Assembly (NCBI GenBank): GCA_964030475.1
Contig: CAXIPT010000003.1
Span: 11,238,295-11,302,294, forward strand
Direction: 5' to 3'
Source of the DNA: Tethya wilhelma
Taxonomy: Eukaryota; Porifera; Demospongiae; Tethyida; Tethyidae
DNA length: 64,000 nucleotides
Shown here one piece after another: positions 47,209 to 59,186 of the stretch; positions within the stretch are counted from its first letter, which is position 1, and the number at the start of each line of letters is the position of its first letter. The notes beneath the pieces are model-generated. The model was not told the DNA's origin, made no database searches, and worked only from the letters and a program-made list of their open reading frames with translations. The position numbers were made by a program, and so were the translations under genes.

Positions 47209-50200
47209 ATGGATGCATCTGTTGCTTCTCCTCTCATTCCTGAGACTACTAATCCCGGCCAAGGAGGTGGATTTGACTGTGAGTTCGTTGAAGAGCCACC
47301 TGAAGCCTTCCAGGTGGAATGTTCAGTGTGTTTGCTAGTTCTTTGTGAACCCTACCAAGTCTCTTGCTGTGGTGACAGCTTCTGTAGAGTTTGTATTGAG
47401 AAGGTAAAAGCCATTAAAAAGCCCTGTCCAAAATGCAAGGTTAAAGATTTCAAGACGTTTGAAAACAAGGGACTCCAACGTTCCCTGTACCAACTTCAAG
47501 TCTACTGTTTATACAAAAAGGAAGGTTGTGAGTGGAGGGGGGAGCTAGGCCAACTCAACAATCACCTCAATTTTAACCCCCTGCCTACAAAGCACCTAGA
47601 GGGGTGTAAATACAGTGAGATCAACTGTCTCTCTTGCACAGAGATTAGCAAACGAAAGGACATTATCCACTTGAATTCTGAAGACGCTATGATCTGTCCC
47701 AAGTGTCCTGACTATGAAAATGTCATCAATAATCACTATCCTAACTGCAGTGATACCCCACAGTCCCAGCAATCAACAGATCCACCTCAGAATGCCCCTC
47801 AATCAAACAACGGTAATGAATGTGTGTTGACATGTTATTGTTTTACACAGAGGAGGTACAACACGAGTGTGCCTTTGCTGAGCTGGCATGTCTGTTAATT
47901 ACATTGCAATTATGTGACTGCAATACTTAACAAAAAGAGTTGATCATGTGCACACGCTTGCCAGCTCAGCAAAGGCGCACTTGTTTGTACCTCCTCTGGG
48001 TTTTATGAAACTTCAAATGCTTTTATTATAGTACATGTTTTCAAGTAACATTGAGTGTAAATAATAACAATAGGTTTCACATGCAATGTATACTGTTGTA
48101 TTCAGGAGCTGGTACTCAGGGCACTATGCGTAGACGTGCAAATGTGGCAGGAGCAGATGACCCTCCAAATCAAGCTCCTGAGGAGGAAGGCCAACAAGAT
48201 GGCAGAGAAGCAGTTCAGGAGAATGATGAAGAAAGAGATGAGCCAGAAAGACAAGGACAAGTAGAAAATGCAAGAACCAGTTCTTGTTCTTGTGTAAAGA
48301 TCACACTATTCCTTGGCTTGGTGGTCATGGTTCTCTGGTGTAAGTTGCAAATTTTCAGTGTGTGGCTAACTCTACTATCACTGTTTGTGTTGGGGACTTT
48401 CACCCACACACAAATGTAGACTCCTACTCACAAGCAAACAAGTGTGACCTTGTACAGTCTTGGTCTCAGCAGTGTGAACAGCAGTGCAACAGCACAGCCT
48501 TGTGGTATGAGTGCTACTGTGACCAGGGATACCGACTGAACAGTGATGGCAACTGGAGATGTGATGGTAAGAGTGTTACCTACACAATACCATTTGAAAT
48601 GAGATAGGATATTCAGTGGGCCTATTACACTACACATAAGGGTAAATAATTTCTTCACAGTGATAGGGCCAGAGGGGTGCAAAGAAACTCTCTTTGTTTA
48701 GCAATGTAACATTCATTGCATTCCAACTTTCACCCATGCAGACATCAATGAGTGCCATGAAGAGACCCACCAGTGTGCTCAAACCTGTCACAACACCAAT
48801 GGCTCCTACCGCTGCTCTTGCAAAAAGGGTTACTCTCTGCATGGAGATGGTTGTCACTGCAATGGTTAGCTATCTAAACAAACAATTGTATCAAAAAATT
48901 TACCCTTCCCACCTATTGCACATAAAGTCACATACTCAAACCACACTCCACTTGACATTATGCTGTCACATTCCCAGACCATTTCCCAGACCTATTGTGA
49001 AAATAACATTCACAGTGTTATGTACACACAACACCTATCTTACTAACTATACAATAATATAATAATTATCAATGTTTCAGATATCGATGAGTGTCTGAGT
49101 GAGACTCACGTATGTAGTCAACTCTGTACCAACACTAAAGGTTCATACAAGTGTTCTTGTAAACCTGGATATGAGCTAGGAAGTGATGGAACTCACTGCT
49201 ATGGTGTGTTGCAAGAATAGATGTCCTTTATTAGTAGAATGATGTGTTGCAATTGCTCCTTTTGTCTTCCAGACATTGATGAATGCTCCAATGGTAAGAA
49301 CAAGTGTGAGCAGCAATGTAGCAACACACCTGGATCTTACAGGTGCAGCTGTGACAGTGGATACAGGTTGAAGAACAATGGACAGACTTGTGAAGGTAAG
49401 AAGTGTAGATAGGTGTCATGATGTGAAGCATAGACCTTTCATTCATGTGTATTATCTACGCTGGCCTGACACTGATTTTTTGGTCCTGAAATTTTCGATC
49501 CCCCCTCTGAAAATTTTGGTCCGACTGAAAAGTGAATGAGTGAAGGAGAGGATGACCTTTGCTGGGGCCAGATGTGGTCGTAATTGTTACTACGCACATT
49601 ACATTCCAACTCTTCACCCATTCAGACATCAATGAGTGCCATGAAGAGACCCACCAGTGTGCTCAAACCTGTCACAACACCAATGGCTCCTACAGCTGCT
49701 CTTGCAGAGAGGGCTACTCTCTGAGTGGAGATGGTTATCACTGCAATGGTATTATATCCAAACAAACAATTGTATCAAATTTTACCCATCCCAGTATTGC
49801 ATATAAAGTCACATACTCAAACCTCATTCCATTGACATTTTACTGTCACATTCCCAGACCATTTCCCAGACCTATAATGTATTATGAAAATAACATTCAC
49901 AGTGTTATGTACCAGAGGAGGTCTGACATCCGCTGGTTAATTGCAGGCCATTTCTAAATTAACACATCACATTACTCTTGTTTCCTGGTCTTTAATTCAG
50001 ATGCTACTACTTGGAAATAAGCTGAGTTTTGTTCTCTTTCTTGTTACTTCGCTAGATAAGTTGCTTAGAGGGCAAGGCAACCCTTTGGAAATGGCTAAAG
50101 GCTTAGATAAGTGCAAATACGGAGATCTGGAAATAATATCACGTGATCGCCAAGGTTTTGCTGCAATTAACCCGCAGATGTCGGACCTCCTCTACACACA

Positions 50201-58800: not shown

Positions 58801-59186
58801 AACCACCGGGAAAGAATCATCAACAGAGCAAGGAAGAGTACTTTGTCAAGAGACTCAATGCCTGGGTCAAAGCGATCCATGGAGTGATCACCAAAGTCAG
58901 GATTCCAATGGACTTGAGTGATCTTGAAAAGCGAGTCATACCAGCTGGATTTGAAGATCCTCATCTTCCTGATCGCAAGTTCTGGCTTAGTAAACTGTGG
59001 CTTAGTCTGTTTGAACAGGCAGACAAGAGAGCACAGGGCAGTCTTCTCAAGATGAACTTGGACAGGCTGATGCAAGAGGAGAAGGCAAAGGAGCAAGACT
59101 TTGAGAAGGAGATGCACAAACAACCGATAGTCACTGAGAAGACATGGTATGAGACTTTGTGGTCATGGCTACCCTTTACTAGTTAA
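55825..59186 (+). CDS. Copy D: RING - TRAF-type zinc fingers - TM - EGF x6 - AIG1-like GTPase
   Basis: Intact, about 800 residues, the simplest complete copy. Exon 1 from ATG 55825 ([13 protein letters not shown]): RING CSVC...[11 protein letters not shown]...CPTC, then TRAF-type fingers. Exon 2 (about 56518-56763): linker [16 protein letters not shown]... and TM ([20 protein letters not shown]). Exon 3 (56875-57020): divergent EGF. EGF exons at 57186, 57481, 57694, 57947 and 58151, one repeat each, phase 1. Last exon (58337-59186): GTPase with [26 protein letters not shown] and the tail [15 protein letters not shown]. It lacks the N-terminal extension (MDASVASPL...) of copy C. The five EGF types occur once each, so this may resemble the ancestral layout. 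RING position 4 is Lys, as C-C-G-K replaces the usual C-G-H. Topology and function unknown. Confidence 0.87.

Follow-up and report, generated by a model that had tools for sequence, protein, structure and literature searches.

A sponge gene cluster predicted to join a TRAF-like RING head, one membrane span, an EGF array and an AIG1/Toc-type GTPase

TRAF-like RING domains, EGF arrays and AIG1/Toc-type GTPases are each well known, and what appears new at the locus described here is their joining. TRAF RINGs work when clustered. TRAF6 and the TRAF-like RING–zf-TRAF–MATH proteins resemble the sponge family in the RING and the first zinc-finger region; however, they carry a MATH (TRAF-C) domain, whereas in the sponge genes A and B a transmembrane (TM) segment, an EGF array and a GTPase follow the fingers instead. 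EGF membrane receptors of the Notch/LDL-receptor style have phase-1 single-exon EGF_CA modules in common with the family, but the latter has no visible signal peptide, carries its TM segment ahead of the EGF array (type II order) and has an ectodomain that ends in a GTPase. The AIG1/GIMAP (IAN) proteins share with it the AIG1 Pfam domain, the motifs G1 and G3-G5 and the arrangement as a tandem cluster. GIMAPs with a C-terminal hydrophobic segment are cytosolic and tail-anchored, whereas the sponge GTPase lacks such an anchor and is nearer to Toc34/Toc33, plant proteins with a C-terminal anchor that have no RING or EGF. The G domains of AIG1 and Toc proteins pair through their nucleotide faces.

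According to sections of the respective papers, a derivative of the bacterial cell wall elicits a response of AIG1 genes in a coral (PMC3723955), as symbiont consortia do in a sponge (PMC11229196), and a glass sponge has an expanded set of AIG1 genes with a single exon each (PMC10282587); two of these papers report that the sponge Amphimedon has none (PMC3723955, PMC11229196). The partners of AIG1 given there for snail and amphioxus are death/CARD, kinase, ARM, Hint, coiled-coil or TM parts (PMC7053062, PMC12373286). RING or EGF does not appear as an AIG1 partner in the available sections of this coral, sponge, snail and amphioxus literature, and a word search of the available text on the transmembrane AIG proteins of Biomphalaria glabrata (PMC7053062) gave no RING.

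The window, i.e. the whole stretch of 64,000 nt that was analysed (C3:11238295-11302294 of the 124.6-Mb genome), contains gene A (47209-53324, 18 exons, 1183 aa) and gene B (55825-59186, 9 exons, 805 aa), in both of which TRAF-type RING/zinc fingers are followed by one TM segment, a calcium-binding EGF array and an AIG1/Toc-type GTPase:

47209..47812, + strand: gene A exon 1, containing the start codon and encoding the variant RING with the TRAF-type zinc fingers (gene model, Pfam on the first exon; TRAF6 match of the family)
48106..48339, + strand: gene A exon 2, encoding an acidic linker and the single clear TM segment, protein residues 260-278 (gene model, hydropathy scan)
48420..48566, + strand: gene A exon 3, EGF0, a divergent EGF-like module next to the membrane
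48742..52415, + strand: gene A exons 4-17, all in phase 1 and each encoding one of the 14 calcium-binding EGF modules (gene model, Pfam)
52486..53324, + strand: gene A exon 18, encoding the AIG1/Toc-type GTPase and containing the stop codon (gene model, Pfam)
55825..56377, + strand: gene B exon 1, containing the start codon and encoding the variant RING with the TRAF-type zinc fingers (gene model, Pfam, protein search)
56518..56763, + strand: gene B exon 2, encoding an acidic linker and the single clear TM segment, protein residues 247-265 (gene model, hydropathy scan)
56874..57020, + strand: gene B exon 3, EGF0
57187..58279, + strand: gene B exons 4-8, five calcium-binding EGF modules (gene model, Pfam)
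58336..59186, + strand: gene B exon 9, encoding the AIG1/Toc-type GTPase and containing the stop codon (gene model, Pfam, profile/fold comparison)

Start and stop codons lie exactly at 47209/53324 and 55825/59186, and neither translation contains a stop. All introns of A and B are GT-AG and in phase 1, as are 64 of 64 modelled introns in the six open copies of the family, although these tallies hold partly by construction since the exon borders were placed by homology together with GT-AG/phase-1 fit. The independent part of the intron evidence is the match of the modelled borders between copies whose GTPases are only 50-54% identical.

Genome searches with the GTPase, RING and EGF0 exons found eight copies of the family in one 46-kb cluster (about C3:11279361-11325040), namely A, B and the decayed copies C1 and C2 on the plus strand and, to the right of the window, M1-M4 on the minus strand. 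Modelled from the sequence there, M1-M4 have no internal stops and keep the five-part order; open throughout are the six copies A, B and M1-M4. Besides A and B the window holds the following relatives:

41067..43793 (about), + strand: decayed copy C1
41067-41626, + strand: C1 RING exon, interrupted by an internal gap; a start codon was not seen
about 41730, + strand: C1 TM exon
42069-42215, + strand: C1 EGF0
42351-43000, + strand: three C1 EGF exons
44130..46986 (about), + strand: decayed copy C2, with RING pieces containing stops and a broken GTPase
about 44764, + strand: C2 TM exon
45263-45409, + strand: C2 EGF0
45468-46322, + strand: C2 EGF exons
53678..54956, - strand: S1, a short two-exon relative with an N-terminal TM exon, a phase-1 intron and a GTPase exon of the same type (junction placed by eye)
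60139..61302, - strand: S2, a second short TM and GTPase gene with the same phase-1 junction (placed by eye)
62007..63596, - strand: M5, a partial copy identical to the terminal part of M4 with its EGF exons and its GTPase exon; its length is a lower bound, the left end being the end of the sequence compared

The GTPase exon of C1 has an in-frame gap of about 31 residues, and no RING or EGF was seen in S1. Thus the main points of the preliminary description were recovered: two intact genes with the same five-part order, exon borders conserved between them (and matched in the minus-strand copies), and two decayed copies keeping the order. The frame of M1 is open for another 1218 nt upstream of the start used (406 codons, with a Met at its beginning), which leaves the true start and N-terminus of M1 unsure without affecting its other exons, and M1 may be longer than modelled. 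This stretch of 406 residues had no Pfam match at E <= 0.1 and no useful match in the PDB.

With EGF0 as query, eight strong matches (E 1.4e-9 or better) were obtained, all in the cluster, and the next had an E value of 9.2e-6 (38 matches listed, 150 of 345 candidates scored). When loci L003-L050 were scanned with flanks of about 1.5 kb, EGF exons turned up only at those of the cluster, and in three more stretches next to other GTPases (L055-L057) the GTPase was matched, whereas EGF, RING and TM exons were absent. RING-type exons are common in the genome (at least 150 matches, 150 of 283 candidates scored), and so are AIG1-like domains (109 matches).

The profile search for each domain that had been suggested as a check gave clear support for the EGF and GTPase parts and little for the RING part. 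In Pfam, EGF_CA matched 14 stretches in A and five in B, and AIG1 scored 67.5 bits in A and 55.1 bits in B against a cut-off of 27 bits. RING was matched in the whole proteins only in B and below the cut-off, and first exons alone gave sub-cut-off matches in A, B, M2, M3 and M4; zf-TRAF matched neither whole A or B nor these five first exons, and MATH (TRAF-C) was absent from A and B at E <= 0.01. NCBIfam produced only sub-cut-off GTPase matches for two GTPase exons and none for the RING exon of gene B, and Rfam gave no match at gathering cut-offs.

Because Pfam is weak here, the RING/TRAF-finger call rests on two other matches: residues 1-170 of gene B are 57% identical to P0008, a protein with zf-TRAF and MATH, and a profile of the family (27 rows, of which the window supplied three) matched the TRAF6 RING-ZnF structure with an E value of 4.7e-20; exon 1 of M2 alone reached 2.2e-11. 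When the protein search was done with the RING part (70 candidates), 34 matches were obtained, of which 31 have zf-TRAF and 28 MATH, and none of the 34 lists EGF or AIG1. A structure model of the RING exon was poor (pLDDT 65.5), with a TRAF5/TRAF6 RING pair as best fold match (E 0.0027) and no match reaching 0.001, and sequence comparison was given more weight. The RING of the family has CCG-x-x-FC in place of CGH-x-FC in all six open copies and thus does not show the eight zinc ligands, including His, of a C3HC4 RING E3; the His is likewise absent in 34 of 34 TRAF-like relatives, and the adjacent extra Cys may substitute for it as ligand. Since the RING lacks its His, ligase activity is uncertain as far as can be read from the sequence. 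Genes A and B retain a second region of the TRAF finger type, which was not evident by eye in M1-M3. Thus the head has the RING and TRAF-type zinc finger of a TRAF without the C-terminal MATH, and the RING plus TRAF zinc fingers of the preliminary description stand as a TRAF-like head, though not as a canonical RING, nor with a second finger evident in every copy.

The EGF array is well preserved. Six cysteines are present in 46 of the 47 EGF modules of the six open copies, which gave 45 matches to the EGF_CA pattern and 47 matches to the secretory-type hydroxylation pattern. The EGF_CA domain, the six cysteines and the calcium-binding consensus of a calcium-binding EGF ectodomain are all present.

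The GTPase carries the motifs G1, G3, G4 and G5 in all six open copies, with G4 reading NKxE in A and B and NKxD or NRxD in M1-M4. Profile and fold comparison placed the G domain, whose fold matches Toc34/Toc33, nearer to Toc34/33 than to GIMAP, so that it does not qualify as GIMAP proper. The AIG1 genome search was unspecific, since six-frame controls gave matches in 12 of 14 prokaryote genomes, over the cut-off in eight; the 109 matches therefore represent GTPases of a broad kind, and the identity of the domain rests on profile and fold. Altogether, of the AIG1/GIMAP-like GTPase proposed earlier the AIG1 part holds for A and B, but the likeness to GIMAP gives way to Toc34/33. The C-terminal hydrophobic anchor of Toc34/Toc33 was absent by hydropathy from all six copies, while 67 of the 119 GTPase relatives listed have a C-terminal hydrophobic segment. 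The protein search with the GTPase part (proteins of 443-1409 aa, 1945 candidates) gave seven matches, none of which lists an EGF or RING domain. Scans of contig collections found at least 14 loci with 22-34% identity in prokaryote records and two with 34% on viral contigs; P0150 of Halichondria panicea is 35% identical.

The abundance of RING-type exons and AIG1-like domains in the genome speaks for a gene-model fusion, in which TRAF-like RING, EGF and GTPase genes lie in a row and are transcribed separately, as does the fact that the one-gene reading is built on DNA sequence rather than RNA. Against this, the same order recurs in eight copies on two strands, the gap between TM exon and EGF0 is 65-110 nt in all six open copies, none of which has an in-frame Met ahead of EGF0, and M1 carries RING and TM in a single open exon. 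The GTPase exons of A and B contain no Met before the P-loop; in those of M1-M4, however, a Met is present at position 4 or 20, and since it precedes the P-loop a separate GTPase start could be used in these four copies. In M1 the intron between EGF and GTPase is long (1949 nt). Among the minus-strand copies the identities are 75-90% for RING, 85-93% for EGF0 and 74-86% for GTPase, and between plus and minus copies 60-65%, 55-61% and 50-54%, respectively, i.e. the modules fall together. A dN/dS ratio (Nei-Gojobori) was obtained for 8 of 15 possible pairs (M1 was left out for RING because its first exon is fused); it was below 1 in each of these and amounted to 0.16-0.40 for the GTPase; EGF0 of A and B differs by zero synonymous change at a dN of 0.052, giving no ratio to support selection, and in two plus-minus pairs dS was at least 1.1 or saturated, values that carry little weight. 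As judged from these substitutions, the RING, EGF and GTPase parts are under purifying selection. Fusion, the reading that was tested hardest, was nearly ruled out at the sequence level by the repeated order, the borders kept at 50-54% GTPase identity and the Met positions, and it is very improbable, as the preliminary description had held. We thus consider it highly probable on these grounds that all modules belong to one predicted gene.

Hydrophobic segments and charge bias were read from a hydropathy scan (Kyte-Doolittle, threshold 1.6) and not from a dedicated predictor. Each of the six proteins has one clear hydrophobic segment, located between RING and EGF0, and a weaker second stretch in A and B (1.35 and 1.33) covers the RING. 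Neither an N-terminal signal-peptide-like stretch (M1 being read from the start used) nor an EGF array before the TM, the marks of a type I EGF receptor, was found by hydropathy. The RING side of the segment is the more basic one in all six proteins (2-3 Lys/Arg among the 15 residues that precede the segment, one on its other side), although the bias is modest and in A four acidic residues exceed the three basic ones on the N side; S2 has two basic residues on each side. A type II orientation with the N-terminal TRAF-like RING/zinc-finger head in the cytosol and the EGF array lumenal or extracellular is accordingly predicted and well supported, and the array is very likely extracytosolic. As the one clear span separates the RING from the EGF array, the prediction puts the GTPase on the same side as the EGF modules, which we regard as probable. 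This consequence of the single span was absent from the preliminary description. It is the strangest feature of the family that a conserved GTP-binding site would be placed in a compartment where GTP is scarce, and the two are hard to reconcile. The C-terminal hydrophobic segment of 67 of the 119 listed relatives, a feature of cytosolic tail-anchored GIMAPs, also speaks against such a placement. The conflict would have disappeared if a second span had separated the EGF array from the GTPase, or if the C terminus had been anchored; neither was found by hydropathy in the six copies. By eye, the Trp-rich C-terminal tail corresponds in position to the moderately hydrophobic end of P0150 from Halichondria panicea (1.35, below the threshold of 1.6). 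It is possible that this tail touches the membrane.

The best explanation, although we hold it tentatively, is a single-pass type II protein with a TRAF-like RING head in the cytosol and G domains carried at the end of an EGF stalk that varies in length. The ectodomain G domains would pair in a nucleotide-dependent manner and the pairing would cluster the cytosolic heads, switching on ubiquitin or adaptor signalling; this is proposed because AIG1/Toc G domains pair and TRAF RINGs work clustered, and that such pairing drives signalling is, by this analogy, conceivable but rather doubtful. More speculative still is the idea of a new class of membrane receptor, in which the ectodomain G domain is a nucleotide-gated dimeriser that clusters the TRAF-like RING across the membrane, as a one-piece sensor of extracellular or lumenal guanine nucleotide (e.g. 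from damaged cells or microbes) with ubiquitin signalling, exon-shuffled in early animals. The main rival to the type II clustering model assumes that the modules, whose exons are all in phase 1, are directed to different compartments by splicing, a membrane-bound RING-TM-EGF-GTPase form existing beside a soluble cytosolic RING-GTPase form and the GTPase working in the cytosol. As all modelled junctions are in phase 1, any subset of internal exons can be omitted in frame, and exon skipping could therefore give RING-GTPase forms without the membrane and EGF parts. The GTP-binding motifs in six of six copies fit a GTP-rich compartment, and a snail AIG gene is described, in the part of the paper available, as having splice forms that differ in domains (PMC7053062). 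The conserved cysteines and hydroxylation patterns of the EGF modules, however, show that an EGF-containing form has been maintained, and we judge such mixed isoforms to be unlikely, if plausible.

Nor does a lumenal GTPase have to be a switch. It could be an inherited lumenal or extracellular binding domain whose nucleotide site serves folding or ligand binding, with the RING as an adaptor; S1 and S2 already have the GTPase directly after an N-terminal TM, and the placement could thus be inherited, while for snail AIG1 on either side of the membrane is predicted in the portion of the paper available (PMC7053062). The retention of G1, G3, G4 and G5 in all six copies and the low dN/dS of the GTPase argue against this reading, which appears improbable. 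The remaining alternative, an inverted topology with a cytosolic GTPase and the RING head on the outer side, would give the GTPase the cytosolic GTP that it normally needs, and the modest charge bias would permit it. However, basic residues prevail on the RING side in all six copies, no N-terminal signal-peptide-like stretch was found by hydropathy, and with no second span the EGF array would be cytosolic too, against its conserved cysteines, so that an inverted orientation is highly improbable. An immune or receptor role may be supposed. The family may have originated by exon shuffling, in which symmetrical phase-1 EGF exons would have been inserted into the phase-1 intron of a TM and GTPase gene like S1 or S2, and a phase-1 TRAF-like RING exon added in front. 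New domain combinations are not rare in early animals.

At the DNA level the architecture is real, repeated, selected and not found elsewhere in the searches made. If the order in the DNA is that of the protein, either one of two domains believed to be cytosol-only sits outside or splicing sorts the modules, and either answer would be a new insight into GTPase biology. The locus would also be a case of TRAF parts being used by an early animal to assemble candidate proteins of recognition or signalling, and the compact eight-copy cluster is a place where the question of architecture and topology is directly testable.

A described family with the order RING, TRAF finger, TM, EGF and GTPase was not found in the protein databases and literature searched, which agrees with the preliminary description, where no known family combining all parts could be named; absence in other species is weak evidence, as a full copy would go unnoticed where a gene caller had split its exons. 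In P0042, P0043, P0044 and P0046 the initial residues resemble, by eye and from the protein letters, a read-through intron, followed by an exon start at the same place. In a tree of 44 GTPase sequences, the six open copies formed one group with P0042-P0044 and P0046-P0048 (96/98), and this group together with the S type a larger one (100/99). P0044, P0046 and P0048 fell with the minus-strand copies (99/98), while P0042, P0043 and P0047, the last flagged as a long branch, stood outside these and were not firmly joined to A and B. If the contigs of these relatives come from other species, the split into two subtypes predates those species. For P0042 and P0045 the longest contig is given as 824,922 bases, as it is for the TRAF-like proteins P0009, P0010, P0012, P0014, P0016, P0018, P0020 and P0021, which suggests, without proving it, that these two GTPase relatives and the eight TRAF-like proteins share a contig.

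TRAF-like RING exons of the type found in genes A and B, the two intact genes combining RING/TRAF-type zinc fingers with an EGF array and an AIG1-like GTPase, are massively amplified in the genome, with at least 150 matches when the best 150 of 283 candidates were scored. Many of these matches lie in two large clusters, one at 11.4-12.5 Mb of contig C3, which also carries the window, and the other at 2.1-2.7 Mb of contig C4. Instead of the canonical CGH, the RING contains CCG-x in all 34 TRAF-like database relatives (P0008-P0041) and likewise in A, B and their four further open copies M1-M4; judged from the sequences, CCG-x is a variant zinc site conserved throughout the large TRAF-like family. 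Two of the database proteins, P0038 and P0039, have a hydrophobic segment at the C-terminal end, which is probably transmembrane and would, if so, represent another way of tying a TRAF head to the membrane.

AIG1-like GTPase domains were also abundant, with 109 matches genome-wide to the AIG1 model, which is a broad one, whereas for the sponge Amphimedon AIG1 is reported as absent in PMC11229196 and PMC3723955.

Upstream of the RING exon of M1, and in frame with it, the following open stretch was found on the genome segment L054:

L054:6942-8159 (C3:11325041-11326258), minus strand, open stretch of 406 codons

A methionine is located close to its beginning, and a Pfam search with this stretch gave no match; it may be an additional, sixth module at the N-terminus, or else an open frame unrelated to the gene.

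The end of gene M4 is present twice, at window 62007-63596 and again 2051 bases to the right on C3. Sequence comparison revealed that the repeat is exact over at least 1590 bases at this offset, so that either the tandem duplication took place very recently or the assembly is in error here.

In gene A, the EGF array (window 48742-52223) appears on visual inspection to have grown via duplicated blocks of three to four exons, and therefore its repeat number may vary between individuals. The following features were likewise noted by eye, of which the inverted repeats resemble small transposon insertions:

Window about 47830-48000 and 49917-50200, inverted repeats inside two gene A introns
Window 59413-59958, minus strand, gene that looks like an EF-hand protein, between gene B and the short GTPase gene S2
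Window 12850-14460, long open frame that looks like an ALG11-type glycosyltransferase
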